A DNA stretch of 64,000 bases from the NCBI RefSeq assembly GCF_017302985.1, contig NZ_JAFIMU010000008.1, positions 186,001 through 250,000 of the forward strand. Reading direction: 5' to 3'. The translations under genes were made by a program, and so were the position numbers. Origin of the DNA: Corallococcus macrosporus. GTDB lineage: Bacteria; Myxococcota; Myxococcia; Myxococcales; Myxococcaceae. Position 1 is the stretch's first letter. Each line of letters begins with the position of its first letter. Below are positions 1,251 to 27,704 of the stretch, one piece after another. The notes under the pieces were generated by a model. It saw only the letters and a list, made by a program, of their open reading frames with translations, was not told the origin of the DNA and made no database searches.

Positions 1251-2177
1251 TCACGCGGTCTGACGTAGCACCGTGAGCCCCCGCATGAAGTCCTCCGGCA
1301 GCGGGGACTCCACCTGGATGATCCGCCCCGTCGCGGAGGACGGTACCTCCAGCCGCCACGCGTGCAGGGCCTGACGCCCCACCGCGAGCGCCGCCGGGTG
1401 CTTGCGCGCGTCTTCCGTGCCGTAGAGCGAATCCCCCAGCACCGGATACCCGGCCTCCGACAGCTGCACGCGGATCTGATGCGTGCGCCCCGTGTCCAGG
1501 TCGATGTCCAGCAGCGCCCCCTCCCGGAACCGCTCGCGCACCGTGAACGTCAGCGCCGCGCGCCGGGCGGAGGGCACGCGCGTGGTGAAGCGGCGCGGAT
1601 CCTTCGGGTCCCTCGCGTAGGGCCCCTCCAGCCTTCCGGTGTCCGGAGGCCGCCCCAGCACCAGCGTCTGGTAGCGCTTGTCCACGCGCTTCTCCTGGAA
1701 CGCCTTCAAGAGCGCCGCCACCGCGTCGTCCGTCCGGGCCAACGCCAGACAGCCGCTCGTCTCGCGGTCCAGCCGGTGCACCACGCCCGGCTGTGCCACG
1801 CCCTCCACGTCGAACGGCGGGCACCGCGCCGCGAGCAGCCCCACCACCGACGCCGCCCGCCCCTCCGGCTCCACCACCAGGTCCGGCGGCTTGGCCACGA
1901 TGACGAGCGCCGCGTCGTCGTACAGCACCGGCAGCTCCGGGCCTTCCATGGACGCATGCGGCGACGGCCGGGGCTCCGGCGTCTCCAGCGTGAGTTCCTC
2001 GCCGCCCCACAGCTTGCGCGTCGCCTGCGCCTTCTTGCCCCGGATGCGCACCCGTCCCGCGTCCAGCATCGCGCGCGCCCGCTCCGGCGTGAGGCCCGGG
2101 ACGTGCTTCGTCAGGAACCGGTCGAGCCGCTCGCCGGCAATCTCCCGGGGAACCACGAGAACCTTGTGCCGCGTCAT
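1251..2177 (-). CDS. RluA/RluD-family 23S rRNA pseudouridine synthase
   Basis: This 308-residue protein isomerises uridines in rRNA or tRNA to pseudouridine. An S4-type RNA-binding segment lies at about residues 1-70 (ERLDRFL, then ARAMLDAGRVRIRG). The catalytic domain carries the family signature HRLDRETSG with the catalytic Asp at about residue 135, and the later GRTHQIRVQ and GYPVLGDSLYG motifs. I chose the ATG at 2177 because GGGGAAAGG sits just upstream; a longer frame from 2243 adds 22 unconserved residues. Which uridine is modified cannot be told from sequence alone. The start lies about 100 bp from the divergent MFS gene. Confidence 0.9.
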   Translation of the reverse strand: MTRHKVLVVPREIAGERLDRFLTKHVPGLTPERARAMLDAGRVRIRGKKAQATRKLWGGEELTLETPEPRPSPHASMEGPELPVLYDDAALVIVAKPPDLVVEPEGRAASVVGLLAARCPPFDVEGVAQPGVVHRLDRETSGCLALARTDDAVAALLKAFQEKRVDKRYQTLVLGRPPDTGRLEGPYARDPKDPRRFTTRVPSARRAALTFTVRERFREGALLDIDLDTGRTHQIRVQLSEAGYPVLGDSLYGTEDARKHPAALAVGRQALHAWRLEVPSSATGRIIQVESPLPEDFMRGLTVLRQTA

Positions 2178-2276
2178 GCCTTTCCCCGTCTCCCAAGGCA
2201 GGCAGGGAGTCAACCACCGTGTAGGCGTGCGCCCACCGAGCACACGTCAGGGGCGCGCAGTAGAAAGGGGCCCTCC

Positions 2277-3515
2277 GTGGCCACCTCCTTGTTTTCCCGT
2301 TCGGGCTCCGCTCGGGCCCTGTCCCACCGCGACTTCACCCTCCTCTGGCTGGGCACGCTCGTGTCCAACATCGGCACGTGGATGGAGTCCGTCGCGCTGG
2401 GGGTCTACGTCACGCAGGTGACGGGCCAGGCCGCCTGGACGGGCGGCGTCGCGGCGCTGACGCACCTGCCCTCGATGGTGCTCGCGCCCCTGGGCGGCGC
2501 GCTCGCGGACCGCTTCGACCGGCGCACCTTCATGGCCGTGTGCGTGTGCGTGCAGGCGCTCCTGGCCGCGCTGCTCACGGTGCTGGCCGGCACGGGGAAC
2601 CTGTCCGTGCCGTGGGTGGCGGCCATCTCGCTGCTCAACGGCGCGTTCAGCACGCTGGTCATCCCCTGCGCCACGGCGCTCACCGTGGCCGTGGTGCCCA
2701 AGGAGGACCTGCACAACGCGCTCAGCCTGGACTCGGCGCAGTTCAACCTGGGCCGCATCATCGGGCCCGTGCTGGCCGCGCTCGTGCTGACGAAGGTGGG
2801 CATCGCCGGGGCGCTCTTCGTCAACACCCTGTCCTTCCTCGCCGTGCTGCTGGCGCTCGCGGCCATGCGGGGCGCGGCGGCGAGCGCCATCCCCCCGCGG
2901 GTGGAGGCGCTGTGGGCCGGCATCATGCGCGGCGTGCGCCTGGCGTGGACGGACCCGGGCATCGCGCTCGCGCTGGGCTCCGGGGCGCTGGTGGGGCTGC
3001 TCATCTCCCCGTTCGTGGGGCTGGTGCCGGTGTTCGCCCTGAAGGTGCTGGGCGGGGACGCGACCACCACGTCCATGCTGCTCACCGCGCAGGGCACGGG
3101 CGCGGTCATCGCGGCGTTCGGCTCGGGCGCCATCGCCGCGAGGATGGGGCGGCAGGCCTTCCTGGAGTCCGCGCTGCTGCTCGTGGGGCTGTGCTCCGCC
3201 GCCTACTGGCTGTCCCCCACGCTGCCGGTGGCCCTGGTGACGCTGTTCATCCTGGGCGCCGTGTACCTGGTGGCCTTCACCGGCCTGAAGACGGTGTGTC
3301 AGGCGCGTACGCCGCCGGAGCTCCAGGCGCGCGTGAGCAGCCTGTTCCTCCTGCTGGTGAACGCGGGCTACATCCTGGGCGTCTGGGGCCAGGGCGCGCT
3401 GTCGGACCGCGTGGGCGTGCGGCCCATCACCGCCGGGTGCGCCCTGCTCTTCTTCGGCATCGTGGTGGGGATGCGCACGCTGCGCGCCCGGGGCCTGGCC
3501 GCGCTGGGCACCTGA
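2277..3515 (+). CDS. MFS transporter, EntS-like exporter family
   Basis: This is a 412-residue inner-membrane protein with about twelve hydrophobic segments. It begins at a GTG preceded by GAAAGGGG. The N-terminal half has the typical major facilitator loop, with GGALADRFDRR between the second and third helices. The layout matches the MFS_3/enterobactin-exporter (EntS) branch, whose members export siderophores and other small molecules. It ends tail to tail with lysK, and the two stop codons lie in the palindrome TGAGCGCTCA (3513-3522). Being next to the AmCP/NRPS cluster, it could export the product, but it could equally be unrelated. Substrate not determinable. Confidence 0.85.
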   Translation: MATSLFSRSGSARALSHRDFTLLWLGTLVSNIGTWMESVALGVYVTQVTGQAAWTGGVAALTHLPSMVLAPLGGALADRFDRRTFMAVCVCVQALLAALLTVLAGTGNLSVPWVAAISLLNGAFSTLVIPCATALTVAVVPKEDLHNALSLDSAQFNLGRIIGPVLAALVLTKVGIAGALFVNTLSFLAVLLALAAMRGAAASAIPPRVEALWAGIMRGVRLAWTDPGIALALGSGALVGLLISPFVGLVPVFALKVLGGDATTTSMLLTAQGTGAVIAAFGSGAIAARMGRQAFLESALLLVGLCSAAYWLSPTLPVALVTLFILGAVYLVAFTGLKTVCQARTPPELQARVSSLFLLLVNAGYILGVWGQGALSDRVGVRPITAGCALLFFGIVVGMRTLRARGLAALGT

Positions 3516-3519
3516 GCGC

Positions 3520-4596
3520 TCAGCTCCCCGCGGGCGCCTTCGCCGGCAGCAGCGCCAGCACGCGCGCGAGGACGGCGACGCCCTCCTCGTACTCCGGCAG
3601 GTCGATGTGCTCGTTCGGCGTGTGGTCCAGCGCCGCGTCGCCGGGGCCGTAGGCCACCGTGGGCACGCTCCACGCGGAGGCCACGGTGTTCCAGTCGGAC
3701 GTGCCCGTCTTCAGGCGCAGCGTGGGCTTCGCGCCGCGCTCGCGGATGGCCTGCTTGAAGACGCGGGAGAGCGCGTCGTTGCCGTTGGTGGACACGGCGT
3801 CCTTGCGCGCCACGGTGCGCACCGTGACGGTGGGCACGGTGGCCAGCGCCGCGAGCAGCGCTGCCGTGTCCGTGGACGGGCCGGTGCGGATGCTCACCGC
3901 GGCCGTGGCCCACTCCTCCGTCTCCGTGGCGCCGGTGTGGAAGGCGTTGAGCGAGGGCAGGTTCTGCTCGAAGAGGGACGGCCGCTCGCGGTTCCAGTCG
4001 TCACACAACCGCTTGAGCGCGTTCCACGCGTCGATGACGTGTTCGGCGGCGGCGCGGTAGTCGCGGCTCGCGGTGTGGCGGCGGCTGGCGCGGTGCTCCA
4101 GGTCCAGGCGCAGCAGCCCCTTGTAGCCGATGGTCACCGCGTGCGCGCCGCTGGGCTCGCCGTTGATGACGAAGTCCGGGGCGTACTGCTCGCGCACGTG
4201 CAGGGCGCCGCGCGTGATGGCGACCTCCTCCTCCACGCAGCCCAGGAGGAGGAACTGCTTGCCGGCGCGCTCCGCGTCGTCCAGCAGCTCCACGGCTTCG
4301 ATGAACGCGCACAGCGGGCCCTTGGCGTCCACGGCGCCCCGGCCGTAGAGCTTCTGGCCCTCCAGCCGCACCGGCACCTCTCCGGGCACGGTGTCGATGT
4401 GGCCCAGGAACGCGATGACGGTGTCGCCGTCCCCATAGCGGGCAATGGCGTTGCCCATGGCGTCGGTGTGCGCCCGCCAGCCGCGCGTGCCCAGCCGCTC
4501 CACCAGCGCTCCGGCGAAGGAGGCCTCCTGGTGGCTGGGGCTGTACTGCTCCACCATCCACCGCAACAAGTCGACGCCCGGCTCACGCGCCCGCAT
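3520..4596 (-). CDS. lysK: LysK-type [LysW]-amino acid hydrolase (M20 peptidase family)
   Basis: This 358-residue zinc-dependent amidohydrolase of the ArgE/DapE/LysK group has metal ligands in GHIDTVPG (about residue 65), GRGAVDAKGP (about 86) and CVEEE (about 118). In LysW systems the enzyme cuts the amide between the carrier's C-terminal Glu and the finished amino acid, and so is the release step. It is the last gene of the minus-strand operon and overlaps the end of lysZ by 14 bp, which fits translational coupling. The other LysW enzymes in the same operon support LysK over a plain acetylornithine deacetylase. The released substrate is probably not lysine, because no homocitrate-branch genes or LysJ aminotransferase are present here. 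Confidence 0.85.
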   Translation of the reverse strand: MRAREPGVDLLRWMVEQYSPSHQEASFAGALVERLGTRGWRAHTDAMGNAIARYGDGDTVIAFLGHIDTVPGEVPVRLEGQKLYGRGAVDAKGPLCAFIEAVELLDDAERAGKQFLLLGCVEEEVAITRGALHVREQYAPDFVINGEPSGAHAVTIGYKGLLRLDLEHRASRRHTASRDYRAAAEHVIDAWNALKRLCDDWNRERPSLFEQNLPSLNAFHTGATETEEWATAAVSIRTGPSTDTAALLAALATVPTVTVRTVARKDAVSTNGNDALSRVFKQAIRERGAKPTLRLKTGTSDWNTVASAWSVPTVAYGPGDAALDHTPNEHIDLPEYEEGVAVLARVLALLPAKAPAGS

Positions 4597-5452
4597 CCGC
4601 CCCGCCTTTGTCCCGAAGGGTGAACTTCGTGCCGCCCGCCTCCTCCAGCGCGGAGAACACCGGCCGCGCCACGCGAGACGCGCTCACGTACGCGGAAGGA
4701 ACGCCGCCCTCCAGCGCCCGGCGCACGGCCTCCAGCTTGTAGCGCATGCGCCCGCCCGCCAGCGGCATGCAGCCCTCCACGTCATCGCTCGCGCGCACCA
4801 GCGTCGCGGGGTCCTTCGGATCCGCGAGCAGCCCCGGCACGTTGGAGAGGATGACGAGCGCCCGGGCCCCGAGCGCCGCCGCGATGGAGGACGCCACGTG
4901 GTCCGCGTCCACGTTCACGAGCACGCCGTCTTCCGTCACCGCCGGAGGGCACACGACGGGCACGTAGCCGCCGTCCAGGAGCGTCCCGAGGAGCGCCGCG
5001 TTGACGGAGGAGACCTCACCGGCCAGGTGCTCGCGGTCGATGCGCATCCGCCCGTCCGCGCCCTGCAGCTTGAGCGGCGGCCGCCTGCGCGCGGTGAGCA
5101 CGCGGCCGTCCGCGCCGCACAGCCCCAGCGCGGTGACGCCCTTCGCGAGCAGCGCCAGCACCACGGCCTTGTTCACCTCACCCACCCACGCCATGGTGAG
5201 CGCGCGCAGCGTGGGCGCGTAGGTGAGGCGCACGACGTTGCCGTTCGCGGTGGTCGCCTCCGGGCGCTCCATGCCCAGCGAGCCCAACAGCCGCTCACCG
5301 GCCTCCGAGCCGCCGTTGACGACGACGACGCGCGCCCCCTGGCGGACGAGCTCCACCACGTCCGCGCAGACGTTCTCCAGATCCACGCCCGCCGCGCCGC
5401 CAATCTTCACGACGACGGGGCGGGAAGCGGAAGAAGCGGGGATGGAGCTCAT
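4583..5452 (-). CDS. lysZ: LysZ-type [LysW]-aminoadipate/glutamate kinase
   Basis: This 289-residue amino-acid kinase phosphorylates the side-chain carboxylate of the carrier-bound amino acid, giving an acyl phosphate for LysY. It has the N-terminal VVVKIGGAAG nucleotide-binding strand, VVVNGGS, NVDADHVASSIAAALGA in the middle and LSNVPGLL, all typical of the ArgB/LysZ family. The ATG at 5452 has GGAG upstream. A 27-codon frame directly upstream (5449-5532) repeats this gene's own N-terminus and overlaps the start codon, so translation may be coupled. It precedes lysK and follows the SDR gene. Substrate chain length (glutamate or aminoadipate) cannot be read from the sequence. Confidence 0.85.
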   Translation of the reverse strand: MSSIPASSASRPVVVKIGGAAGVDLENVCADVVELVRQGARVVVVNGGSEAGERLLGSLGMERPEATTANGNVVRLTYAPTLRALTMAWVGEVNKAVVLALLAKGVTALGLCGADGRVLTARRRPPLKLQGADGRMRIDREHLAGEVSSVNAALLGTLLDGGYVPVVCPPAVTEDGVLVNVDADHVASSIAAALGARALVILSNVPGLLADPKDPATLVRASDDVEGCMPLAGGRMRYKLEAVRRALEGGVPSAYVSASRVARPVFSALEEAGGTKFTLRDKGGADAGA

Positions 5453-5532
5453 AGGCACTCCAGGTCCACGCTCGCCGCGCCGCCAATCTTCACGATGGGG
5501 CGGCGGGACGGAGTAGCGGCGTTGGCGCTCAT
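5449..5532 (-). pseudogene. Short duplicated copy of the lysZ N-terminus (27 codons)
   Basis: The ATG at 5532 overlaps the SDR stop codon (ATGA), and the frame ends in a TGA that overlaps the lysZ start. The peptide contains RRPIVKIGGAASVDLE, which mirrors RPVVVKIGGAAGVDLE at the start of LysZ. The nucleotides around 5475-5495 repeat those around 5390-5410. It is best read as a partial tandem duplication of the lysZ start. It may be translated as a leader peptide coupling SDR to lysZ, but it is too short to be an enzyme. Confidence 0.6.
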
Positions 5533-6305
5533 CCGATGACGCTCGCGCCGCCGTCCACCAACTGCACGGTGCCGGTGATGAAGGATGCGCGCTCACTGGC
5601 GAGGAACACCGCCGCGGCGGCGAACTCCTCCGGGAGCCCCACGCGCTTGAGCGGGATGTGGGCGCCCATGGCGCGAAGTCCCGCCTCCACGTCGCCCGCG
5701 TTGCCGGCGGTGCGCTCCACGGGCGGCGTGCGCATGTAGCCCGGTGCCAGCACGTTGACGGTGATGCCGCTGTCGCCCAGCTCCTGCACCAGCGCGGCGG
5801 AGAAGCCGACGATGCCCAGGCGAGCGAAGCCGGACAGCGCGAAGCGGGCCACCGGCCGCACCACCGTCTCCGACGTGATGAACAGCAGCCGTCCCCACCC
5901 GGCCTTCTTCATGTGGGGCAGCGCCGCGAGCGCCAGGGAGATGGGCGGCAGGAGCACCGCGTCCGCCGCGCTCCGGTACGCGTCCACGCCGAAGGTGGAG
6001 GCCGGGCCGGGAGGAGGACCGCCGCTGTTGGTGACGACGACGTGCAGCGCGCCCAGCTTCGCCGCGACGTCATCCACCCAGCGGCGCACGTCCGCGTCGT
6101 CCTTCACGTCCACGCGCGTCGCCAGCACACGGCCACCGCGCGCCACGGCCTTGAGCCGAGCCTCCGCCTGGGCCAGCCGGTCCGTGTCCCGCGCGCCGAT
6201 GGCGACGTGCGCGCCCTCCTTCGCCAGTTCCTCCGCGACGGCGAGTCCCAGCCCGCTGGAGCCACCCGCGACGAGCGCGACCTTGTTGGCGAGTCCCAGT
6301 TCCAT
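5529..6305 (-). CDS. Short-chain dehydrogenase/reductase (SDR) with atypical active site
   Basis: This 258-residue Rossmann protein has GGSSGLGLA for NAD(P) binding at about residues 15-23, a TNSGGP segment at about 92-97 and a SDR-typical end (AVFLASERASFITG...VDGG). The conserved serine region reads ITSETVVRP, but the usual Tyr-x-x-x-Lys is replaced by a stretch containing FALSGFARLG. Its catalysis therefore differs from textbook SDRs, or it belongs to the FabG-like subgroup with a substituted tyrosine. GGAGGG lies six bases before the ATG. It is the first gene downstream of the palindromic repeat array and precedes lysZ. A likely role is reducing or oxidising the ketol made by the split transketolase; this is inference. 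Confidence 0.8.
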   Translation of the reverse strand: MELGLANKVALVAGGSSGLGLAVAEELAKEGAHVAIGARDTDRLAQAEARLKAVARGGRVLATRVDVKDDADVRRWVDDVAAKLGALHVVVTNSGGPPPGPASTFGVDAYRSAADAVLLPPISLALAALPHMKKAGWGRLLFITSETVVRPVARFALSGFARLGIVGFSAALVQELGDSGITVNVLAPGYMRTPPVERTAGNAGDVEAGLRAMGAHIPLKRVGLPEEFAAAAVFLASERASFITGTVQLVDGGASVIG

Positions 6306-6380
6306 CCGCGTCCCTCCAGAAGTCGGCGCCAACCGCGCCTGAGTCATCCCACCGCACGCCACCGGACCGCGCATCAAGGT

Positions 6381-6829
6381 CCCAACCGATCCGACTGTCG
6401 GGCCCGCTTCCGCCGCTCGGGTGGAGCACGCCTTCCCTGCCGCCGTTCCCCAACCGGTCCGACTGTCGGACCACTTCCCGCAGACCGGGCCGTTCAGCCC
6501 TCTCCTGCCGCCATTCCCAACGGGTCCCACTGTCGGCCCACTTCCCGCGGCCCGGGCCGTTCAGCCCTACCCCGCCGCCGTCCTCCAACGGGTCCAACTG
6601 TCGGACCACTTCCCACGGCCCGGGTGGAGCAGCCTTCCCCGCCGCCATTCCCAACGGGTCCGACTGTCGGACCACTTCCCACGGCCCGGGTGGAGCACGC
6701 CTTCCCTGCCGCCGTTCCCCAACCGGTCCGACTGTCGGACCACTTTCTACGGTTCGGGTGGGGCAGCCCCTCCCTGCCGCCGTTCCCCAACGGGTCCGAC
6801 TGTCGGACCAGTTCGTCCGGTTCGCCGCC
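6381..6829. repeat. Seven tandem ~68-bp repeats, each with a 15-bp palindrome
   Basis: The 593-bp gap between the sulfotransferase stop and the SDR start contains no credible gene. It is filled by seven units with 66-68 bp spacing. Each carries a core close to GGTCCGACTGTCGGACC, whose arms GTCCGAC and GTCGGAC pair around a single T. Cores start at 6388, 6456, 6523, 6591, 6657, 6725 and 6793. The intervening text (CCACTTCCC, CGGGTGGAGCA, TTCCCTGCCGCC) is also conserved, so this is a true tandem array and not a spacer array. The first and third cores are imperfect. Possible roles are an operator cluster for SDR-lysZ-lysK, a transcript-processing or attenuation region, or a selfish repeat. Confidence 0.9.
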
Positions 6830-6898
6830 GCCGGGGAGGCCCCTCCGGGTTCTCACCTTCTCAACCCCGGGGATGGGATTCAGGCCCGAGGGCTCAGC

Positions 6899-7894
6899 TC
6901 AGGAGCGGGGCTCCACGCCCGCGGCGTCCGGCGCGGCCCCACCGATGGGCGCGCGCTTTGCGCCGCTGAAGTACCCGTACTTCGCCATCAGCGGCCACGC
7001 GAGCGCCACGGTGAGCGCCTTCGCTCCGGACGCCAGCTCGCCCTTCCAGGCGTCGTCCTCGCCGCGCAGGAGCGTGGGGCCGCTGCGGAAGCGGTCCGGG
7101 TTGCCGGTGACGGTGTGGTTCTTCCCCAGCACCACCGTGCGGCCCTTCACCGGGTTCTGCGCACGCGGCACGCCCACCAGGTCCAACACCGTGTCCACGG
7201 CGCGGTCCGGCGCGGCGATGAAGTCCTCGTATCGCAGGAAGAGCGACTGGCCGGGGAACCGGCGCGTCACCTCTTCCGACGCGGCGTTGAAGCCCACCCA
7301 GTACGCCGTGCTGCGCGCGGCCGACATGGGGACGACGTACTGCTTCGTCTTCGTCCACGAGTGCGTCACCGCACGCGGGTCCCGCACCAGGTGCAGATAC
7401 AGCGGCCGGATGCCTTCCACGCGCGGCAGCAGCGCCGCCTCGGACGGGAACTTCCCGCTGTCCACCAGCACCGTGCTCCCCGTGGCCCGCGCGATGGTGC
7501 GGTACGTGCGCGCCAGGAAGTCCGCGTGCGCCTGGAGCGCCTGCGAGTCCCCCGCCTCGTCCAGCACCCGCAGCGTGTGCCGCGTGCGCACGGCGGCCTG
7601 CTGCCGCTTCACCACCGCCTCGGCGTGCGCGCGGGGCGTGAGGCCCGCCGGCACGTCGGAGGTCAGCACCGTGTTCCAGATGCCGCACTCCACCAACTGC
7701 TGGCCGCAGCCGCACAGCGTGTTGGAGCCGTTCCCGTACGCGTTCTTCCACAGGAAGCTCAGCTCCCCCACGTGGAAGAACCCCGGCACCTCGTTGAGCA
7801 CGTTGCCCAGGATGGTGCTGCCGCTGCGGCACCAGCCGGTGATGTAGAGGACGGTGAGCGGCGCGGCCTCGCTCTTCGCGCTCGCGGTGGCCAT
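6899..7894 (-). CDS. PAPS-dependent sulfotransferase
   Basis: This 331-residue cytosolic protein should transfer sulfate from PAPS to a hydroxyl or amine of a small molecule. The 5'-phosphosulfate loop GWCRSGSTILGNVL is at about residues 20-33, and the 3'-phosphate-binding motif LVRDPRAVTHSW at about 168-179. A Cys-rich stretch (LCGCGQQLVECG) is at about residue 60. Its start overlaps the stop of the encapsulin-like gene (TGATG), so the two are probably translated together. Sulfotransferases recur beside natural-product encapsulins as far as I know. Probable substrate: the AmCP-built amino acid or the finished NRPS/PKS product. The C-terminal ~20 residues are Gly/Ala/Pro-rich and look flexible. 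Confidence 0.88.
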   Translation of the reverse strand: MATASAKSEAAPLTVLYITGWCRSGSTILGNVLNEVPGFFHVGELSFLWKNAYGNGSNTLCGCGQQLVECGIWNTVLTSDVPAGLTPRAHAEAVVKRQQAAVRTRHTLRVLDEAGDSQALQAHADFLARTYRTIARATGSTVLVDSGKFPSEAALLPRVEGIRPLYLHLVRDPRAVTHSWTKTKQYVVPMSAARSTAYWVGFNAASEEVTRRFPGQSLFLRYEDFIAAPDRAVDTVLDLVGVPRAQNPVKGRTVVLGKNHTVTGNPDRFRSGPTLLRGEDDAWKGELASGAKALTVALAWPLMAKYGYFSGAKRAPIGGAAPDAAGVEPRS

Positions 7895-8739
7895 CAGGTC
7901 AGCGACGCCACGAAGAAGTGGGTGGGCAGGTGCACCGCGAGCGTCGTGTAGACCTCGCCGTAGGCCGCCAGCCCCTCGCGCGGGAAGATGCCCGGCGGCG
8001 GCTCCGCGAACCGGATGACCGAGCGCTCGCTGTCATACAGCGTCGCCGCGGCGGTGAAGTCCCCCACGATGATGGTGCCCGGGTTCACCATGCGCGTGCG
8101 GCACAGGCGGATGCCCATGGCGGCCAGGTCCGACAGCAGCGACTGCTGGCCCACGAGGTGCTCGTAGAAGTCCAGCGAGTTGATGACGATGCCGTCCGCG
8201 GAGCCGCCCATCTGCTCCACCTGCGCGCAGGCGTTGAGCAGCGAGCGCACCGCGGTCTTCTGCGCCGGCAGCCGCACGATGCCCGGCGTGTGCAAGAGGC
8301 CCCGCACGCCGTCCCCACCCTTGCCGATGCACAGCGCCTGGTTCTCCGCCGTGTTCAGCCGCACCAGCAGGCGGAAGTCGATGAACTGCGCCAGCGACTT
8401 CGGATCCTCCAGCAGGTTGCGCGGCACCTGGATCCACGCGCGCGTGGGCTTGAGCGCCTGCGTGTCCTGGTGGAACTCGAAGCCGGCTTCCGGGCGCAGC
8501 TCCACGTCCTGCACCGGCCCGCTGGGCTTCGTCTGGGGGTGCGTCTCGTACCAGAACGGCACCGGGTCGCGCTCGGCCTTGGCCGTCTTGAACATGCCGC
8601 GCACCGCGATGCGCGGACGGCGCTTGAAGCCGGGGAACGCGTCCACGATGGAGTGGTCGTAGTCCACGTGCGCCTTCGTGCCCTGCTTCTGGACCGCGGC
8701 CGCGAACACCTCACCAGGGGACTTCGTGGTCAAGCTCAT
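7894..8739 (-). CDS. Encapsulin-like HK97-fold shell protein (probable Family 3 natural-product encapsulin)
   Basis: The 281-residue protein follows the order of HK97-type capsid and encapsulin proteins. It has an N-terminal arm (about 1-75), an E-loop-like strand pair with VELRPEAGFEFHQDTQ (about 79-94), then VPRNLLEDPKSLAQFIDFRL (105-124). The P-domain helix runs into ENQALCIGKGGDGVRGLL (132-149), followed by the A-domain helix and NSLDFYEHLVG (187-197). The C-terminal part has NPGTIIVGDFTAAATLY (219-235) and an acidic/aromatic ending. No terminase, portal, protease or tail genes are near, so it is not a phage structural gene in a prophage. It lies between lysY and a sulfotransferase inside a biosynthetic operon, the setting reported for Family 3 encapsulins. 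It should self-assemble into an icosahedral shell; cargo unknown. Family assignment is from motif order, without a structural search. Confidence 0.75.
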   Translation of the reverse strand: MSLTTKSPGEVFAAAVQKQGTKAHVDYDHSIVDAFPGFKRRPRIAVRGMFKTAKAERDPVPFWYETHPQTKPSGPVQDVELRPEAGFEFHQDTQALKPTRAWIQVPRNLLEDPKSLAQFIDFRLLVRLNTAENQALCIGKGGDGVRGLLHTPGIVRLPAQKTAVRSLLNACAQVEQMGGSADGIVINSLDFYEHLVGQQSLLSDLAAMGIRLCRTRMVNPGTIIVGDFTAAATLYDSERSVIRFAEPPPGIFPREGLAAYGEVYTTLAVHLPTHFFVASLT

Positions 8740-8770
8740 GGGATGCGGCTCCTCTAAAAAGAACAGCGGT

Positions 8771-9814
8771 CTAGAGCGGATGCAGGCCCCGGAAGCCCAG
8801 GCCTTCGGTCTCCGGACGGCCCAGCATCAGGTTCAGCGCATGCACCGCCGTACCGGCGGCGCCCTTCACCAGGTTGTCGATGGCGGCGTTCACCACGATG
8901 CGGCCCCGCTCCGCGTCCACGTCCACCGCCAGGTCGCAGTGGTTCGTGCCCAGCAGCGGCCCCGGCTCCGGGAACGGCGACAGGGACGCGCTGGGGCGCA
9001 AGAGCCGCACGAAGGGCTTTTCGCGGTAGCGCGTGGCGATGGCGCGCACCACCTCCGCCTCATCCACCGGCCGCGCCGCGAAGGCGTGCACCGTCGCCAG
9101 GATGCCGCGCACGCCCGGCACCGCCGTGGCGCTGAAGTGGATGGTGGGCTTCTGGCCGGTGACGTGCTCCGCCACGCCCTCCAGCTCGCCCGTGTGCCGG
9201 TGGCCCACCGGCTTGTAGCAGCGCAGCGCGTTCGCGCGCTCCGGGTGGTGCGAGGAGCGGTCCGGCGTCGAGCCGCCCCCGGACGAGCCCGTCTTCGCGT
9301 CCACCACCAGCACGTCCGGGCGCGCGAGCCCCGCGTGCAACAGCGGCAGCAGCGCCAGCAGCCCCGCGTGCGCCATGCAGCCGGGAATGGCCACGTGGCG
9401 CGCATTCGGCAGCGCGTCACCCATCCACTCCGGCAATCCGTAGACGAACGCGGGCACGTCCTCCGGGCGCGGGTGCTTGCCGTACCAGCGCGCGTGCCCC
9501 GCGGGGTCCAGGCGGAAGTCCGCGCTCAGGTCCACCACCCGCTCCGCCAGCCGGCACACCCTCGGCCAGCGATGGAGCAATTCGCCTTGAGGCAGGCAGC
9601 TCACCAGCACGTCGCAGGACTCCAGCGCGTCGTGCGGCGTGTAGCGCAGCGTCCCCGCCCCGCGCAGGTGCGGGTGCGGGAAGTCCAGGCGCTTGCCGGC
9701 GAACTGGCCGGAGGTGGCCTGCACCACCTCCACGGCCGGGTGCGCGAGCAGCAGGCGCAGCACCTCGCCGCCGGTGTAGCCCGCGGCTCCCAGCACCGCC
9801 ACGCGCGCGCTCAT
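8771..9814 (-). CDS. lysY: LysY-type [LysW]-acyl-phosphate reductase (ArgC family)
   Basis: This 347-residue NADPH-dependent semialdehyde dehydrogenase has the N-terminal Rossmann loop GAAGYTGGEVLRLL. The nucleophile cysteine lies in AIPGCMAHAGLLAL (about residues 143-156; ArgC usually has PGCY/NPT). SSGGGSTPDRSSHH and GHRHTGELE follow. It reduces the carrier-bound acyl phosphate made by LysZ to the semialdehyde, which is the C2 acceptor if the transketolase acts here. Its start overlaps the lysX stop (ATGA), while the encapsulin-like gene follows after about 30 bp. Choosing LysY over ArgC rests on the linked lysW, lysX, lysZ and lysK. Confidence 0.86.
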   Translation of the reverse strand: MSARVAVLGAAGYTGGEVLRLLLAHPAVEVVQATSGQFAGKRLDFPHPHLRGAGTLRYTPHDALESCDVLVSCLPQGELLHRWPRVCRLAERVVDLSADFRLDPAGHARWYGKHPRPEDVPAFVYGLPEWMGDALPNARHVAIPGCMAHAGLLALLPLLHAGLARPDVLVVDAKTGSSGGGSTPDRSSHHPERANALRCYKPVGHRHTGELEGVAEHVTGQKPTIHFSATAVPGVRGILATVHAFAARPVDEAEVVRAIATRYREKPFVRLLRPSASLSPFPEPGPLLGTNHCDLAVDVDAERGRIVVNAAIDNLVKGAAGTAVHALNLMLGRPETEGLGFRGLHPL

Positions 9815-10662
9815 CGCCCGGCTCCGGCTCCGGAGGCGACGTACTCCGCGATGAGGTCCGGCAGCGGGACGCCCGTCTCGTCGATGCTGCGCGCGAACTC
9901 CACGCAGTGGTTGATCTCGTTGACGTAGATGTCGCCGCCGCGCGTCTCCAGCAGGTCCACCGCCACCATGTCCCCGCCCACCGCGTCCGCCGCGGCCTCC
10001 GCCAGCTTCGCGTGCACCCCCGACACCTCGTAGCGCTCCGGCACGGCGCCGCGCGCGGTGTTGGTGATCCAGTGCTCGGAGCGGCGGCGCAGGCCGCCCA
10101 CCGCACGGCCGATGACGTAGACGCGCAGGTCGTAGCCCGGCTTGTCCACGTACTCCTGCACCAGCGCCACGTGGTCCTGCGCGCCGCCGCTGCCAAAGCG
10201 CGTGGACAGCACGCCCTCCGCCGCGGAGCGCGAGTCCAGCCGGGCCACCATCCGGCCCCAGCTCCCCAGCACGGGCTTGGTCACCACCGGGTAGCCCCTG
10301 GCCTCAATCGCATCCAGGCACGCGTCCTCGTCGAAGGCCACGAACGCCCACGGCATGGGCACGCCCTTCGCGGCGAGCGCCGCGCTGGTGAGCGCCTTGT
10401 CCCCGCACAGGGAGATGGTGCGCGCGCTGTTGAGCACGCGCAGCCCCTTCATCTCCAGGAACGTGGCCAGGTAGCGCGCACGCGTGAAGGACATGCTGCG
10501 CATCAACACGGTGTCGGCCTCGTTGACGCGCTGCCGGTCCATCGACAGCACCATCCCGGAGTCCTGCACCAGGTTGACGGCGCAGTCGCGCCTGCGCAGC
10601 GCCTCGAGGAGGAGCTTCTCCTCGGTGCGAATGCGCGTATAGACGAGGTCGACCTTGCGCAT
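9811..10662 (-). CDS. lysX: LysX-type ATP-grasp ligase (LysW-amino acid ligase)
   Basis: This 283-residue ATP-grasp enzyme has VVTKPVLGSWGRM (about 126-138), which holds the ATP lysine and glycine-rich loop, then a YDLRVYVIG strand and the metal-binding VNEINHCVEFARS near residue 250. LysX, ArgX and RimK enzymes of this size join an amino acid's alpha-amino group to the C-terminal Glu of the LysW carrier. The Asn-x-x-Glu-Phe end matches the LysX/ArgX family, but the substrate-determining motif is not the Thermus aminoadipate form I remember. The loaded amino acid (glutamate or aminoadipate) is therefore open. It sits directly after lysW (9 bp gap) and overlaps lysY. Confidence 0.86.
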   Translation of the reverse strand: MRKVDLVYTRIRTEEKLLLEALRRRDCAVNLVQDSGMVLSMDRQRVNEADTVLMRSMSFTRARYLATFLEMKGLRVLNSARTISLCGDKALTSAALAAKGVPMPWAFVAFDEDACLDAIEARGYPVVTKPVLGSWGRMVARLDSRSAAEGVLSTRFGSGGAQDHVALVQEYVDKPGYDLRVYVIGRAVGGLRRRSEHWITNTARGAVPERYEVSGVHAKLAEAAADAVGGDMVAVDLLETRGGDIYVNEINHCVEFARSIDETGVPLPDLIAEYVASGAGAGR

Positions 10663-10671
10663 GGCGCGGGT

Positions 10672-10875
10672 CTACTCCCCCCAGTCTTCCTCGACCTCGG
10701 GTGCTTCCTCGAGCCGCAGCGGGTTCACGCCCACCACCTCCAGCTCTGCGGAACAGCCGTCACAGGAGAGCACCTCGCCCACCATCCGGTTGCCCGCGGG
10801 CACCGGCTGCGCGCACAGGGGACACTGGTCGGCCGGCACGGACTGCGTCATCGGGTTCGGGTTCTGGACCTGCAT
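10672..10875 (-). CDS. lysW: LysW-type amino-group carrier protein (AmCP)
   Basis: This 67-residue acidic zinc-ribbon protein has cysteine pairs CPLC (18-21) and CDGC (38-41). It ends in the diagnostic EEDWGE, whose terminal Glu67 gamma-carboxylate carries the substrate amino group. LysW proteins both protect the alpha-amine and present the substrate electrostatically to LysX, LysZ, LysY and LysK, all present in this operon. The ATG at 10875 has GAGGAGGG upstream and starts one base after the stop of the transketolase C-half. The N-terminal 15 residues (Gln/Asn/Pro-rich) extend beyond the Thermus form. The intact GE tail argues for a functional carrier. Confidence 0.92.
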   Translation of the reverse strand: MQVQNPNPMTQSVPADQCPLCAQPVPAGNRMVGEVLSCDGCSAELEVVGVNPLRLEEAPEVEEDWGE

Positions 10876-10876
10876 G

Positions 10877-11914
10877 TCAGTCCCTCCTCGGTTCGGATCC
10901 CACGGCAAACACCGGGGTTCTTGGGAGCACTCCCAGGATGCGCTCGGCCACCTGCCCGCCCTCCAGCCCGTGGCCCTTGAGCAAGGCTTCGTGCGAACCG
11001 GCGCGCGGGTCGTAGCGGTCCTGGATGCCCACGCGCAGCACGCGCCGCCCCAGGTCCAGCGAGCACACCGTCTCACACACCGCGCTGCCCAGGCCGCCGA
11101 GCACGTTGTGCTCCTCCACGGTCACGAGCAGCCGCGTGCGCGACGACGTCTCGCGCACCGCCTCCTCGTCCAGCGGCTTGAGCGTGTGCACGTTGAGCAC
11201 GCGCGCGGAGACGCCCTGCGCCTCCAACAGCTTCGCGGCGTCCAGCGCCACGGCCACGCCCACCTCGCCGTGCGCGAGGAGCCCCACGTCGTCGCCCTCG
11301 CGCAGGAGCGCGGCGCGGCCCAGTTCGAAGGGCGGGCGTTGAATGTCCAGGCGGGTGACGCGGTTGCGGCCCAGCCGCAGGTACACCGGCCCCTCGTGCG
11401 CGAGCATCGCCTGCGTGGCCTGCACCGTCTCCAGGCCGTCCGCGGGCGACACCACCGTGAGGTTGGGCATCGCGCGCAGCACGGCCAGGTCTTCGATGGC
11501 GTGGTGCGTGGGGCCGAAGAACGCGCCCGCCACGCCGCCGTAATCACAGACGAGCTTCACGTTGGCGCGCGCGTAGGCCAGGTTGAGCCGCACCTGCTCG
11601 CACGCGCGCATCACGCCGAACGCCGCGAAGCTGTGCGCGATGACGGTGTGCCCGCCGTGCGCCAGGCCACACGCCATGTCCAGCATGGTGGCCTCGCAGA
11701 TGCCCAGGTTGAAGTAGCGCTGCGGGTGGCGCTTCTCGAACGGGTCCCCGCCGCCGCCCAGGTCCGCCTCCAGGAAGACGACGCGCGTGTCATCTTGAGC
11801 GAAGCGCGCCGCCGCGTGCCGGAACACCAGCCGGCTGGACAGCTCCGGGTGCGCGGCGAGCCACGCCTCCGGCGCCTGGGCCAGGTCCACCGCCGGGGCC
11901 AGCGACGCGCTCAT
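10877..11914 (-). CDS. Transketolase C-terminal half (pyrimidine-binding subunit)
   Basis: This 345-residue protein covers the Pyr and C-terminal domains of transketolase: VVFLEADLGGGGD, FNLGICEATMLDMACGLAHGG (19 residues apart from the next motif), the FAAFGVMRACEQVR helix, YGGVAGAFFGPTHHAIEDLAVLRAMPN in the middle, and a C-terminal VEEHNVLGGLGSAV. It pairs with the N-half encoded directly upstream; their stop and start codons overlap (ATGA). Split transketolases are frequent in specialised metabolism and in AmCP clusters, where they add a two-carbon ketol unit to the carrier-bound semialdehyde. An ordinary pentose-phosphate role is less likely given the operon. Confidence 0.88.
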   Translation of the reverse strand: MSASLAPAVDLAQAPEAWLAAHPELSSRLVFRHAAARFAQDDTRVVFLEADLGGGGDPFEKRHPQRYFNLGICEATMLDMACGLAHGGHTVIAHSFAAFGVMRACEQVRLNLAYARANVKLVCDYGGVAGAFFGPTHHAIEDLAVLRAMPNLTVVSPADGLETVQATQAMLAHEGPVYLRLGRNRVTRLDIQRPPFELGRAALLREGDDVGLLAHGEVGVAVALDAAKLLEAQGVSARVLNVHTLKPLDEEAVRETSSRTRLLVTVEEHNVLGGLGSAVCETVCSLDLGRRVLRVGIQDRYDPRAGSHEALLKGHGLEGGQVAERILGVLPRTPVFAVGSEPRRD

Positions 11915-12858
11915 TGGCCGTCCTCCCCCAGCGACGCGAGCGCCCGGCGCAGGTGCTCCGCGGAGAACACGGCGTAGTGCGGCCCCTTGCCCTTGAGCAT
12001 GGGCACGCCCGCGCCCTTCTGCGTCCGGGCGACGACCGCGCGCGGACGGCCCCCCACGACCGGCGCCTCCAGCGCGGCGCACAGGGCGGGCAGGTCGTGC
12101 CCGTCCACCTCCAGCGACTGGAAGCCGAACGCGTCCAGCCGCTGCACCAGCGCCTCCTGCGACAGGATGGACTCGGTGGGCCCGTCGTTCTGCCCGCCGT
12201 TGCGGTCGATGATCAGCGTCAGGCCCGTGAGCTTGCGGTGCGACGCCACCTGGAGCGCTTCCCAGTTGGAGCCCTCGCCCATCTCGCCGTCGCCGCAGAT
12301 GACGAAGGTGCGGTTGGGTTCACCGCGCAGCGCGTGCGCCAGCGTCAGCCCCACGCCCAGCCCCAGCCCGTGGCCCAGGCTGCCGGTGGCGAACTCCACG
12401 CCCGGCACCGCCGCGTTCACGTGCCCGGTGAAGATGCTGCCGTCCGCGTTGTAGTCGCGCACCAGCGTCTCCACGTCCACGAAGCCGAACTCCGCGAGCG
12501 CCGCGTAGAGCCCCGCCGCCGCGTGTCCCTTGGACAGGATGAGGTGGTCGCGCTCCGGCATCTTCGGCGCGCGCGGATCCACGCGCATCACCCGGCCCAG
12601 CAGCGCCACCAATATCTCCACCATCGACAGCGAGCCGCCCAGGTGACAGCCCGACGGCGTCGCCGCCAGCCGCACGATGGTCTGACGGATGCGCTTCGCT
12701 CGCCGGGGCAGCAGCGCCAGCCCCGCGTCCGACGCGGCGCCCGAGGGGCCGTCTCCAGTGCGAGCAGGCATCGCCGGGCCGCTGGAGGCCGTGGGTTCAT
12801 CTGGCGTCCGCGCGTCGCGCGACAGCCCGGGAGTCGTTGGATTCGCCGAGAAAGTCAT
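11911..12858 (-). CDS. Transketolase N-terminal half (TPP-binding subunit) with flexible extension
   Basis: About 315 residues. The thiamine-diphosphate domain begins near residue 52 (RRAKRIRQTIVRLAA), with CHLGGSLSMVEI, ILSKGHAAAGLYA, GSLGHGLGLGVG and the TPP motif GDGEMGEGSNWEA...DRNGGQNDG. The first ~50 residues are Pro/Ala/Ser/Gly/Thr-rich and look disordered, which is unusual for a split transketolase. The ATG at 12858 was chosen for position only; the frame continues to 12909 and no strong ribosome site is seen. It is the first gene of the minus-strand operon, read divergently from the adenylating enzyme. Together with the C-half it should transfer a C2 ketol from a ketose phosphate to an aldehyde. 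Confidence 0.86.
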   Translation of the reverse strand: MTFSANPTTPGLSRDARTPDEPTASSGPAMPARTGDGPSGAASDAGLALLPRRAKRIRQTIVRLAATPSGCHLGGSLSMVEILVALLGRVMRVDPRAPKMPERDHLILSKGHAAAGLYAALAEFGFVDVETLVRDYNADGSIFTGHVNAAVPGVEFATGSLGHGLGLGVGLTLAHALRGEPNRTFVICGDGEMGEGSNWEALQVASHRKLTGLTLIIDRNGGQNDGPTESILSQEALVQRLDAFGFQSLEVDGHDLPALCAALEAPVVGGRPRAVVARTQKGAGVPMLKGKGPHYAVFSAEHLRRALASLGEDGQ

Positions 12859-13057
12859 GCCCGTAGCGTCGCTGTCACAGCCCCGGAATCCGGCTGTTGT
12901 GAGACACACTAGGAAATCGCATTATGCGCCGTCAACGCGGATTTTCTTAAGATGTAGATGTACGAGAAAAAACCGTCTTGCCCGGTAATCTCGCGGTGTT
13001 ACACGCGCGGCACGCTCTGCATTCCCAGGCCTCGCGTCAATGGGAGGAGACCTTCAG
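12859..13057. promoter_or_regulatory. Divergent intergenic region between AmCP operon and NRPS genes
   Basis: These 200 bp separate the two divergent transcription units and are much richer in A/T (about 12890-13010) than the rest of the window, including AGATGTAGATGTACGAG and a GCGCATAATGCG-like word on the minus strand. Both promoters of the cluster should lie here. I cannot assign -35/-10 pairs with confidence. The plus-strand end carries the ribosome site GGGAGGAG (13042-13049) for the ATG at 13058. Confidence 0.5.
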
Positions 13058-14725
13058 ATGGGGCAGCGTTTCCATAACGCAGCGGCGTTGGAGAAGGGTT
13101 CGGAGTACCGCCGGAAGGGTTGGTGGCGTGACACCACGGTGGTTGACGATCTGCGTCGCTGCGTCCAATCGCATCCGGACAAGACCGCGATCATTGCCGC
13201 ACGGTACTTTTCCAAGGACATCACGCGTCTGACCTACGCGGAGCTGGCGCGGTACATGGACCGCTTCGCGCTGGGCCTGCGCGATTTGGGCGTGGGGCGC
13301 GAGGACATCGTCGCGGTGCAGCTGCCCAATGGGTGGCACTTCACGGCGCTGGCGCTGGCGTGCGCGCGGATCGGGGCGGTCATCGCGCCCATCCCGCCCG
13401 ACTACCGGCGGCGCGAGGTGGAGTTCATCCTGGGGCGCACGGAGGCGTCCGTTTACGTGGGGCCCACGTCATGGACGGGGCACTCACACCGGGACATGGC
13501 CCGCGACATCGCGGCGGCGCTTCCGTCGCTGCGCCACCGGGTGCTGCTCGGCAGCAACGACGGGCTCCAGGCAGGCGAGCGGGACTTCGAGCGCCACTTC
13601 ATCGAGCGGGAGTGGGAGAAGGAGGCGTCGCTGGAGGGCGTGGCCCCGGCGGCCGCGGACGACGTCTGCAACATCCTCTACACGTCCGGCACCACGGGCG
13701 AGCCGAAGGGCGTGGTGCACTCGCACAACACGAACTACGGCATCACGCGCGCGCTCTGCGACACGCTGGGCATCGACGGCACGGACGTGGTGGCGCTGCC
13801 CTCGCTGCTGACGGCGTCCACGGGGTTCACGTACTCGTACCTGATGCCCATGCTGCTGGGCGCCACGGCCATCTACATGGACGTGGGCGACCCGGAGCTG
13901 ACGCTCAAGCTCTTCGAGGAGCATGGCGTCACGTTCACGTACGGCATTCCCACGTACCTGATGAACCTCATCGCGTTGCAGAAGAAGCGCCAGCGAAACA
14001 CCTCCTCGCTGAGGCAGCTGGCCACGGGCTCCATCCCGGTGCCGCCGCACCTCATCGCGGCGGTGCGCGAGGTGTTCGGCGTGCGGCTGCACACGCTGTG
14101 GGGCATGACGGAGAACGGCGCGGTCACCATCACGCGCCATGAGGACCCGCCGGACTGGCCCAGCCAGAGTGACGGGCGGGCGGTGGCGTGGATGGAGACG
14201 AAGATCGTCCCCGCGCTCGCGGAGGACGGCACGCCGTATCCGGACGGGACGGGGCGGCTGCTGGTGCGCGGCGCCAGCCAGTGCCTCACCTACTTCAAGC
14301 GCGACGACGTGTACGCCGCGGCGGTGGACGCGGAGGGCTGGTTCGACACGGGCGACCTGGCGCGCGACGACGGACGCGGCGGCATCCGCATCGTGGGGCG
14401 GCTCAAGGACGTCATCTTCCGGTACGGCTACAAGATCCCCGTGGTGGAGGTGGAGTCCGCGCTGTACTCGCACCCGAAGGTGAAGGAGGTCGCCGTCGTC
14501 GCGCACTCGGACGACAAGATTGGCGGCGAGCGGGTGTGCGCCGTCGTGGTGGTGCGCGAGGGCGAGGCCCCGCCGACGCTCACCGAGCTGCGCGACCACC
14601 TCAAGCAGCAGGGCATGTCCAACCAGTACTGGCCGGACCGCCTGGACATCATCGACGAGATGCCCAAGACGGCCACCGGCAAGGTGCGCAAGTACCTCTT
14701 GCGTGAACGCCTGAAGCCCGCGTGA
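13058..14725 (+). CDS. Free-standing adenylating enzyme (acyl-CoA synthetase / NRPS A-domain family)
   Basis: This 555-residue ANL-superfamily enzyme activates a carboxylic acid as the adenylate and should pass it to a carrier protein or CoA. Core motifs are intact: YTSGTTGEPKG near residue 220, LWGMTENG near 348, FDTGDLARDDG near 430, GRLKDVIFRYGYKI near 447, and the C-terminal lysine in TATGKVRKYLL. The starts at 13040 and 13058 are in frame; GGAGGAG precedes 13058. A carrier-protein gene follows after 19 bp, so this pair is a plausible loading module for NRPS 1. Similarity is closer to fatty/alicyclic acyl ligases than to amino-acid A domains, which suggests an acyl starter. It could also load in trans the NRPS modules whose own A domains are broken. 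Confidence 0.85.
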   Translation: MGQRFHNAAALEKGSEYRRKGWWRDTTVVDDLRRCVQSHPDKTAIIAARYFSKDITRLTYAELARYMDRFALGLRDLGVGREDIVAVQLPNGWHFTALALACARIGAVIAPIPPDYRRREVEFILGRTEASVYVGPTSWTGHSHRDMARDIAAALPSLRHRVLLGSNDGLQAGERDFERHFIEREWEKEASLEGVAPAAADDVCNILYTSGTTGEPKGVVHSHNTNYGITRALCDTLGIDGTDVVALPSLLTASTGFTYSYLMPMLLGATAIYMDVGDPELTLKLFEEHGVTFTYGIPTYLMNLIALQKKRQRNTSSLRQLATGSIPVPPHLIAAVREVFGVRLHTLWGMTENGAVTITRHEDPPDWPSQSDGRAVAWMETKIVPALAEDGTPYPDGTGRLLVRGASQCLTYFKRDDVYAAAVDAEGWFDTGDLARDDGRGGIRIVGRLKDVIFRYGYKIPVVEVESALYSHPKVKEVAVVAHSDDKIGGERVCAVVVVREGEAPPTLTELRDHLKQQGMSNQYWPDRLDIIDEMPKTATGKVRKYLLRERLKPA

Positions 14726-14744: not shown

Positions 14745-15005
14745 ATGAATCCGAGCACCGAAGAAGCCGCCACCAGCGGCACGGAAGCGACGCTCGCCGC
14801 GTGGTGGAAGGAGCTGCTGGGCGTGGAGGTCGTGCGCCCGGAGGACCACTTCCTGGAGATTGGCGGCAACTCCCTCATGGCCACGGTCCTGTCCAACCGC
14901 ATCGAGAGCGAGCTGGGCGTGGAGGTGTCCATGGTGGAGCTGTTCGACACGCTCCGCGCCGTGGCCACGCTGTGCGACGAGCTGCGCCAGGAGCAGACCG
15001 CTTGA
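14745..15005 (+). CDS. Free-standing acyl/peptidyl carrier protein
   Basis: This is an 86-residue carrier protein. The phosphopantetheine serine lies in HFLEIGGNSLMATVLSNRI, typical of ACP/PCP domains. It is co-oriented with the adenylating enzyme (19 bp upstream) and with NRPS 1 (start 55 bp downstream). It probably accepts the starter unit and hands it to the first condensation domain of NRPS 1. The 3' part of this gene and the sequence after it are duplicated at 27903 onward, in front of NRPS 2, where the carrier gene is broken. The intact homologue at 37816 differs throughout, so the two carriers may serve different partners. Confidence 0.88.
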   Translation: MNPSTEEAATSGTEATLAAWWKELLGVEVVRPEDHFLEIGGNSLMATVLSNRIESELGVEVSMVELFDTLRAVATLCDELRQEQTA

Positions 15006-18000: not shown

Positions 18001-18365
18001 GTGGACATGAGCGCGCTGCGCCCAAGTCTGGCCGCGCGGCTGCCCGCGCCGCTGGTCCCCTCCGCCTTCGTGAAGCTGGACCGGCTGCCGCTGACGCCCG
18101 TGGGCAAGGTGGACCGCAAGGCGCTCGCCACCCCCATGGGTGACGCGCCCACGGGCGAGTCCTCCGTGGCGCCCGTCACCCCGACGGAGACGGCGGTCGC
18201 GGAGGTCTGGGCCGCGCTCCTGGGCCGCACGCGCGTCGGCGCGCAGGACTCCTTCTTCGAATTGGGCGGGCACTCGCTGCTCGCCACGCAGGTCGTCTCG
18301 CGGCTGCGGGAAACGTTCGCCGTGGACCTGTCCGTGCGCATGCTGTTCGAGGCGCCCACGGTCAG
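14957..18365. repeat. 3.3-kb direct repeat, copy 1 (carrier 3' end to first NRPS module)
   Basis: It spans the last ~50 bp of the carrier gene and the whole C-A-T first module of NRPS 1. It matches 27903-31245 almost base for base. The offset is 12946 bp up to the 66-bp tandem repeats and 12880 bp after them, because this copy has one extra 66-bp unit. Sequence identity drops sharply just after the first carrier domain (VDLSVR...LFEAPTV). It is a recent segmental duplication or gene-conversion tract. Confidence 0.92.
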
Positions 18366-27655: not shown

Positions 27656-27704
27656 GCCGGCCAGACTGCCAAAGAAGCCCGGAACCCGGGGAAGGACCGA
27701 ACCT

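Follow-up and report, generated by a model that had tools for sequence, protein, structure and literature searches.

A family 3 encapsulin gene cluster of Corallococcus in which the amino-group carrier LysW may be the main partner of the shell

Family 3 encapsulins form the closest described systems. Andreas and Giessen (2021; PMC8346489) report 132 of these "natural product encapsulins", mainly from Streptomyces and Myxococcus, and their account describes clusters that hold a short-chain dehydrogenase/reductase (SDR), a sulfotransferase, nonribosomal peptide synthetase (NRPS) and polyketide synthase (PKS) genes and LysW-like carriers. They hypothesized that enzymes are packed in the shell and reactive aldehydes and ketones sequestered; for one studied cluster, that of chloromyxamide, which contains 6-chloromethyl-5-methoxypipecolic acid, the role of the shell is stated there as unknown. 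"Encapsulin" and "LysW" occurred together in this paper only in our literature search. Here we describe a cluster of this kind in a stretch of 64,000 nucleotides from a 9.8 Mb Corallococcus macrosporus genome (G000:C8:186001-250000; "the window" denotes this whole stretch), in which ten genes of the same direction on the minus strand, at 3520-12858, encode a LysW amino-group carrier with its partner enzymes, a split transketolase, a sulfotransferase, an SDR and a shell protein. Comparison across the family showed that every genome with the shell gene also holds the carrier gene and that, in eight genomes, these two lie side by side, apart from the other eight; the split, the family-wide co-occurrence and, for the split genomes, a strong conflict between the shell tree and the enzyme tree are the new part of this work.

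The span runs from the stop codon of LysK to the ATG of the transketolase N-terminal subunit, and its features, from the first gene onwards, are as follows.

11911-12858, minus strand: transketolase N-terminal subunit (TKN); PF00456, 7e-32; a GTG start at 12909 is possible too
10877-11914, minus strand: transketolase C-terminal subunit (TKC); PF02779 and PF02780; best solved match 6yaj, 1.5e-60
10672-10875, minus strand: LysW amino-group carrier, 67 aa; PF21344; TIGR01206, 60.9 bits (cut-off 53.2)
9811-10662, minus strand: LysX-type ATP-grasp ligase; PF22626 and RimK; 3vpd 5.5e-61, 1uc8 1.6e-56
8771-9814, minus strand: LysY/ArgC-type phosphate reductase (semialdehyde-making); TIGR01850 (argC), 325.1 bits (cut-off 233.6); 2ozp, 5eio
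7894-8739, minus strand: predicted family 3 encapsulin shell protein; NF041188, 353.4 bits (cut-off 180); PF05065
6899-7894, minus strand: sulfotransferase (ST), ending ahead of a repeat array; PF13469, 2.7e-12
6306-6898, minus strand: array of repeats of about 60-65 bp between sulfotransferase and SDR, seen in the sequence
5529-6305, minus strand: SDR, start MELGLANK (from alignment); PF13561, 4e-43
4583-5452, minus strand: LysZ kinase; PF00696; NF010659 ([LysW]-aminoadipate kinase), 229.1 bits (cut-off 223)
3520-4596, minus strand: LysK-type M20 hydrolase (carrier release); PF01546; NF003367, 356.1 bits (cut-off 363); TIGR01902, 284 bits (cut-off 163.1)

A full LysW cycle, split transketolase, SDR, sulfotransferase and shell in one minus-strand set had been proposed from the letters of the DNA (hereafter the original prediction), and Pfam and NCBIfam placed all ten genes where it had put them. 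Its remark that myxobacteria had no described product from a gene set like this did not survive, as PMC8346489 gives family 3 clusters of this kind and chloromyxamide; the cluster is a further member of an already published kind, and the compartment model of the original prediction, in which a reactive semialdehyde or ketol would be made in or at the shell, has likewise been in print since 2021.

The shell protein matched the Pfam phage capsid family PF05065 (1.9e-8) and the NCBIfam model NF041188 (encap_f3, "family 3 encapsulin nanocompartment shell protein"), the latter at 353.4 bits against a cut-off of 180. An AlphaFold2 model made with 15 related sequences as input (pLDDT 84.8) was compared with the PDB by Foldseek, which returned the HK97 prohead first (9.8e-19) and encapsulins from 4.4e-12. 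The shell gene is 99% identical to its counterpart in C. interemptor. The family model, the predicted HK97 fold and the natural-product cluster setting together identify this protein, as far as its gene reveals, as a family 3 encapsulin.

The carrier has the two CxxC pairs and the EEDWGE end of a LysW, as do those of 31 relatives, though these were found by a pattern that itself required such an end. Its N-terminus is about 14 residues longer than the LysW model (frame residues 18-68 align to TIGR01206 positions 4-54) and begins with M-x-x-Q in 24 of 24 ten-gene-type loci, with the fragment in G080 counted in, and with MHALTKQ or MQALTKQ in all eight split-type loci, both judged by eye (the two types are defined below). 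The partners LysX, LysZ, LysY and LysK were all recognized by NCBIfam, two of them slightly under equivalog cut-offs ([LysW]-lysine hydrolase 356.1 against 363, LysX_arch 258.6 against 275.6). The solved LysX match 1uc8 is a "lysine biosynthesis enzyme", and 6yaj, the best solved match of TKC, is the corresponding C-terminal chain in the Carboxydothermus split transketolase.

To place the cluster in its family we used a sample of 96 genomes, in which LysX was counted at E <= 1e-40 and LysW at the NCBIfam cut-off. The shell gene was found in 31 genomes (30 above cut-off, and G021, where it is broken over two contigs), LysW in 33 and LysX in 32, and all 31 shell genomes hold both LysW and LysX, as the original prediction of co-conserved shell and carrier genes had it. 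LysW and LysX without the shell were seen in G080, whose 5.7 kb contig stops in LysY, before the expected place of the shell gene; the remaining extra LysW, in G034, is a LysW-like stretch of an 852-aa frame that scored 29 bits. A phylum-wide search of 195 genomes returned the same 31 shell genomes.

Two arrangements were found among them. In the ten-gene type (23 of 31), a divergent AMP-ligase gene is followed by TKN, TKC, LysW, LysX, LysY, shell, ST, SDR, LysZ and LysK, so that LysW and the shell gene are not neighbours. This order is complete in 19 genomes, the window counted in, and contig ends cut it in G017, G019, G021 and G029; as far as the contigs reach it is the same in 23 of 23, bearing out the expected conservation of gene order and arguing that the gene set is not a product of chance. 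In the split type (G055, G057, G058, G060, G061, G064, G069 and G071, all of genus group g19, which also includes G053), LysW and the shell gene lie 12-13 bp apart, downstream of an NRPS-type adenylation gene, in eight of eight genomes. The other locus of these genomes keeps the AMP-ligase and the order TKN-TKC-LysX-LysY-ST-SDR-LysZ-LysK without LysW or shell, again in eight of eight. The two loci are 4.7-5.6 Mb apart on one contig in G060, G069 and G071 and on separate contigs in the other five. These genomes look like a natural experiment, since of the ten genes the carrier and the shell are the two found apart, next to each other; they also carry a warning for genome mining, as a single-locus tool would here overlook one part of the set, either these two genes or the remaining eight.

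The surroundings of the LysW-shell pair were covered over 59.5 kb in three split-type genomes and over 17-19.5 kb in the other five. In the former three an NRPS stands ahead of the pair, with an end similar to the acyl carrier protein (ACP)-thioesterase (TE) part of the window PKS. Near the pair in G055 there is one weak LysX-like match (24% identity), and an MFS-like (major facilitator superfamily) frame lies on the opposite strand between NRPS and LysW. An ornithine-cyclodeaminase family gene (PF02423; L093:17335-18471) precedes the pair-adjoining NRPS in G071 and, to judge from its start, in G055 too; G069 showed none at that place.

The histories of the shell and of the enzymes were compared in trees, the shell trees leaving out the broken gene of G021 and the enzyme tree joining eight genes end to end for 27 of the 32 LysX genomes (those with at least six of the eight genes found by the start-codon rule). 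Shells of the split type formed one clade (99/98), sister to those of G003, G005, G006, G056 and G070 (100/97), and a grouping of the split type with G053, G063, G067 and G068 was rejected (p-AU, the approximately unbiased test, 0.004). With nine outside sequences added the sister group was the same (98/95), and the ten-gene order was found on both sides of the tree and is therefore probably the older one. The enzyme tree gave the opposite result, as it placed the split type with G053, G063, G067 and G068 (100/100) and rejected the grouping with the G003 group (p-AU 9e-40). In the rpoB tree the split-type genomes formed one clade with G072 inside (98/94; G072 beside G069, 87/85), G053, G063, G067, G068 and G056 fell in another clade, and both the split type with G053, G063, G067 and G068 and the split type with the G003 group were rejected as clades. 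G072 itself lacks the shell, LysX and any LysW above cut-off, so that neither of the two distant loci is present in it. The conflict is most simply read as a joint replacement or move of carrier and shell, which would then serve the resident enzymes in trans. As a separate observation, the ten-gene clusters of G056 and G070, two genomes of group g19, resemble those of group g3, and both genomes lie by rpoB away from G003, G005 and G006; since their shell and enzymes resemble those of the G003 group and their rpoB does not, whole clusters also appear to have moved between lineages.

We propose that this is a family 3 encapsulin cluster which makes a C7 amino acid on LysW for the adjoining NRPS/PKS line and in which the main partner of the shell is LysW, a reading that we hold to be about evenly balanced between right and wrong. 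The carrier, rather than the semialdehyde-making enzymes, is favoured as the partner because LysW and the shell lie apart from the other eight genes in eight genomes. A more tentative extension is that LysW and shell make up a portable module of two genes, working in trans for enzymes encoded far away, its client being the loaded carrier with a sulfate-activated building block, and that in the split type the module was taken from another lineage and replaced the native pair together. If this were so, an encapsulin would take up a tethered building block on a carrier rather than an enzyme.

In the chemistry that we envisage, LysX would link the amino group of glutamate to the tail of LysW, and LysZ and LysY would turn the glutamate side chain into a semialdehyde, which the split transketolase would lengthen by two carbons to a 2-amino-5,7-dihydroxy-6-oxoheptanoyl chain. 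The SDR, putatively acting on C6, would reduce the ketone to a 2-amino-5,6,7-trihydroxyheptanoate chain, and the sulfotransferase would sulfate one of the hydroxyls, at a putative position, as a leaving group. Until release, LysW would mask the amino group and the activated carrier-bound intermediate would stay in or at the shell; LysK would then free the 2-amino group and, if C6 is the sulfated position, a six-membered ring would close to 5-hydroxy-6-hydroxymethyl-pipecolate; alternatively, a sulfate at C7 would be equally displaceable by chloride. Counted from its name, 6-chloromethyl-pipecolate has seven skeleton carbons, that is, glutamate plus two, and the scheme offers a possible route to this chlorinated pipecolate, described as a residue of unknown biosynthesis.

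The leaving-group step is proposed by analogy, because the two best solved neighbours of the sulfotransferase are CurM and the olefin-synthase sulfotransferase and because sulfation is used in this way by CurM and in azinomycin synthesis. The CurM sulfotransferase is described as sulfating a beta-hydroxyl ahead of elimination (PMC6274090), and the azinomycin route as running through a kinase, a reductase, a two-carbon extension by transketolase, an aminotransferase and sulfation, after which nitrogen displaces the sulfate to form the aziridine (PMC9570651). The sulfotransferase matched no NCBIfam model. Its structural model, made with eight sequences, has a pLDDT of 70.9 and a low-confidence tail at residues 311-331; Foldseek matched it to CurM (2.1e-8), to the olefin-synthase enzyme (2.2e-7) and then to tyrosylprotein sulfotransferases (8e-7), with a template modelling (TM) score of about 0.5 for the first two. 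Up to E 0.1 the CurM and olefin-synthase enzymes were also the only PDB sequence matches, and weak ones.

Two candidates for a cargo tag were considered, and the first was discounted. The sulfotransferase of relatives ends in DSRRDxxGTGTRQ, but the DNA for this end shares bases with the SDR gene's start codon and ribosome-binding site, read in another frame, and nine genomes are without it; a remnant of this longer tail is present in the window, where it overlaps the SDR start and the repeat array parts it from the gene. The N-terminal extension of LysW is loosely conserved and no more than a lead. The array (6306-6898) carries the palindrome GGTCCGACAGTCGGACC, and parts of it match many other sites of the genome; in relatives the gap between sulfotransferase and SDR, measured from the ends of tblastn hits, ranges from an overlap to about 1.7 kb.

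Shell loci outside the myxobacteria were collected with the window shell as query, which gave nine at 42-50% identity in actinobacteria and Burkholderiales (L018-L023 and L025-L027). An aldo/keto reductase gene and a sulfotransferase-like gene stand ahead of the shell in nine of nine, an NRPS-like gene with adenylation (A), thiolation (T) and reductase domains is present in eight of nine (partial in L026; the contig of L027 begins after it), and an MFS gene follows the shell in eight of nine, L021 being the exception; domains were checked on one example each. No LysW was found within the stretches examined at these nine loci (best E 0.62). A Streptomyces plasmid (L112) lists, within 15 kb, genes for LysX, LysW, a kinase, a reductase, an M20 hydrolase, a split transketolase and an aminotransferase, together with an adenylation-domain gene.

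Several of these observations weigh against a partnership of shell and LysW as proposed here. Genome-wide, LysW was found in one of the eight outside shell genomes and in none of the other seven, so that in this sample the sulfotransferase is the wider companion of the shell, and perhaps its older partner, and LysW the myxobacterial one; no shell is among the listed genes within 15 kb at L112, although that gene table is incomplete. The sulfotransferase is modestly like CurM (TM about 0.5), and tyrosylprotein sulfotransferases score nearly as well. No cargo-loading signal was established in the two places examined, the sulfotransferase end and the LysW N-terminal extension: the GTGT end is missing in the window and in eight further genomes of its genus, and the LysW extension is, as said, loosely conserved. 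The split type is one clade and perhaps one event, and the tested groupings were chosen once the trees had been inspected. Furthermore, the joint history of LysW and shell rests on adjacency, because LysW is too short for a tree (its domain is 70-73% identical between the split type and every other group, and no placement was possible).

The published alternative is that the shell packs the sulfotransferase, the SDR or other enzymes as a vessel holding aldehyde, ketone and sulfate-ester intermediates (PMC8346489). It draws on the sulfotransferase gene adjoining the shell gene in the ten-gene type, on the sulfotransferase-like gene and aldo/keto reductase ahead of the shell in all nine non-myxobacterial loci and on the low model confidence of the sulfotransferase tail (residues 311-331); yet in eight genomes the shell adjoins LysW, away from the sulfotransferase and seven other genes, the shell tree conflicts with the enzyme tree, and nine genomes of the genus, that of the window among them, have no such tail end, its conservation elsewhere being explicable by the overlap with the SDR start. 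We therefore regard enzyme cargo as rather unlikely. Another possibility, which we consider improbable, is product holding or self-protection: the shell would bind the completed electrophilic amino acid or peptide rather than an intermediate, LysW being linked to it by nothing but a shared need of the strains. The NRPS with a window-PKS-like ACP-TE end ahead of the pair in three split-type genomes and the MFS gene adjoining the shell in eight of nine non-myxobacterial loci would suit such a role, which nevertheless gives no account of why LysW, of ten genes, is the one kept beside the shell where the set is split.

Two further explanations were weighed. The capsid gene could be a prophage remnant or part of a gene-transfer agent, in the cluster by chance, given its HK97 fold, with phage capsids as the best fold matches, and the phage capsids that a sequence search matched to it at 25-29% identity in the best eight rows of 124 records. 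Such an origin is barely credible for a gene that keeps its place in 23 of 23 ten-gene-type genomes and scores 353 bits with a named encapsulin family; moreover, a PHROG search with the shell gave no match at E <= 0.001 and no phage genes were seen among the window open reading frames (ORFs) scanned. Nor, despite five recognizable cycle genes, do we give more than a very slight chance to the carrier set serving primary lysine or arginine synthesis, with its place beside the assembly line an accident. The genome has a further argC (325.6 bits) and argB (203.5 bits), 5 kb apart on contig C4, and a single LysW, and 64 of the 96 family genomes are without this LysX; these facts indicate that the set does not belong to primary metabolism. 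Of the two outcomes that the original prediction named as refuting it, shell and carrier genes not conserved together or a role of the set in primary synthesis, neither was observed. To our knowledge, transketolase and sulfotransferase have no place in the lysine and arginine pathways.

The genes beside the ten are a transporter downstream and, divergent from TKN, the assembly line.

2270-3515 (start approximate), plus strand: MFS exporter, convergent with LysK; PF05977, 6.8e-51, within ORF 1362-3515
13040-14725, plus strand: stand-alone acyl-AMP ligase; PF00501, 9e-76; PDB aryl-AMP ligases, 5wm2 5.4e-64
14745-15005, plus strand: stand-alone carrier protein (peptidyl or acyl carrier protein, PCP/ACP); PF00550, 4e-14
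15061-23979 (start approximate), plus strand: NRPS1, three condensation (C), three T and two recognised A domains; scanned as ORF 14860-23979
23990-27757, minus strand: PKS with ketosynthase (KS), acyltransferase (AT), ACP and TE domains, from a domain scan
28007-37702, plus strand: NRPS2, three C, A and T domains, from a domain scan

The original prediction of a divergent line of two NRPS genes and a PKS was borne out for the NRPS genes, both on the plus strand after the AMP-ligase and the free carrier protein; the PKS lies between them on the minus strand. No NCBIfam equivalog above cut-off was among the best 25 matches of the AMP-ligase. The middle A region of NRPS1 looked degenerate by eye. 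NRPS1 and NRPS2 (14912-19684 against 27860-32564) are 97.6% identical in DNA along 1774 bp and about 90% identical along another 3 kb, which may reflect a recent duplication or an effect of assembly; at this place two relatives, G018 and G027, each have a single NRPS frame of about 4300 aa. A second stand-alone carrier domain follows NRPS2 (37855-38040), and a similar free carrier stands at the far cluster end in G027.

Among described systems, the family 3 clusters of PMC8346489 are like the window in their HK97 shell annotated as phage capsid, their NRPS/PKS, SDR, sulfotransferase and LysW-like carrier and their occurrence in myxobacteria; the family 3 section of that paper does not contain the split of carrier and shell or the family-wide co-occurrence of LysW and shell. 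The chloromyxamide cluster shares the family 3 shell, and the C7 skeleton of its 6-chloromethylpipecolate is what the window enzyme set would give. It is reportedly the cluster of Myxococcus sp. MCy10608 treated by Gorges et al. in 2018. No methyltransferase or halogenase domain was found in the window ORFs scanned, a difference that speaks against the product being chloromyxamide itself, and the cluster probably makes a relative of it. A chloromyxamide cluster is also listed in strain MSG2 (PMC10435759), and "chloromyxamide 13%" is given for scaffold 18 of Citreicoccus inhibens (PMC8538283); the shell locus L015 lies on NODE_18 of a Citreicoccus inhibens genome, and the only shell locus of G068 is of the ten-gene type.

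The azinomycin/vazabitide (DADH) pathway, as far as described in the source cited above, resembles the proposed one in its masked glutamate (on a carrier or acetylated), its kinase, reductase and transketolase and its hydroxyl sulfated as a leaving group. It differs in its aminotransferase, which is absent from the ten window genes (no search was made for one acting in trans from elsewhere) and present at L112; L112 in turn lists no shell, SDR or sulfotransferase, all three of which the window set has. With lysine and arginine synthesis on LysW the window shares LysW, LysX, LysZ, LysY and LysK, whereas its ten genes lack the LysJ aminotransferase, are not the only argB and argC of the genome and add a transketolase, an SDR and a sulfotransferase.

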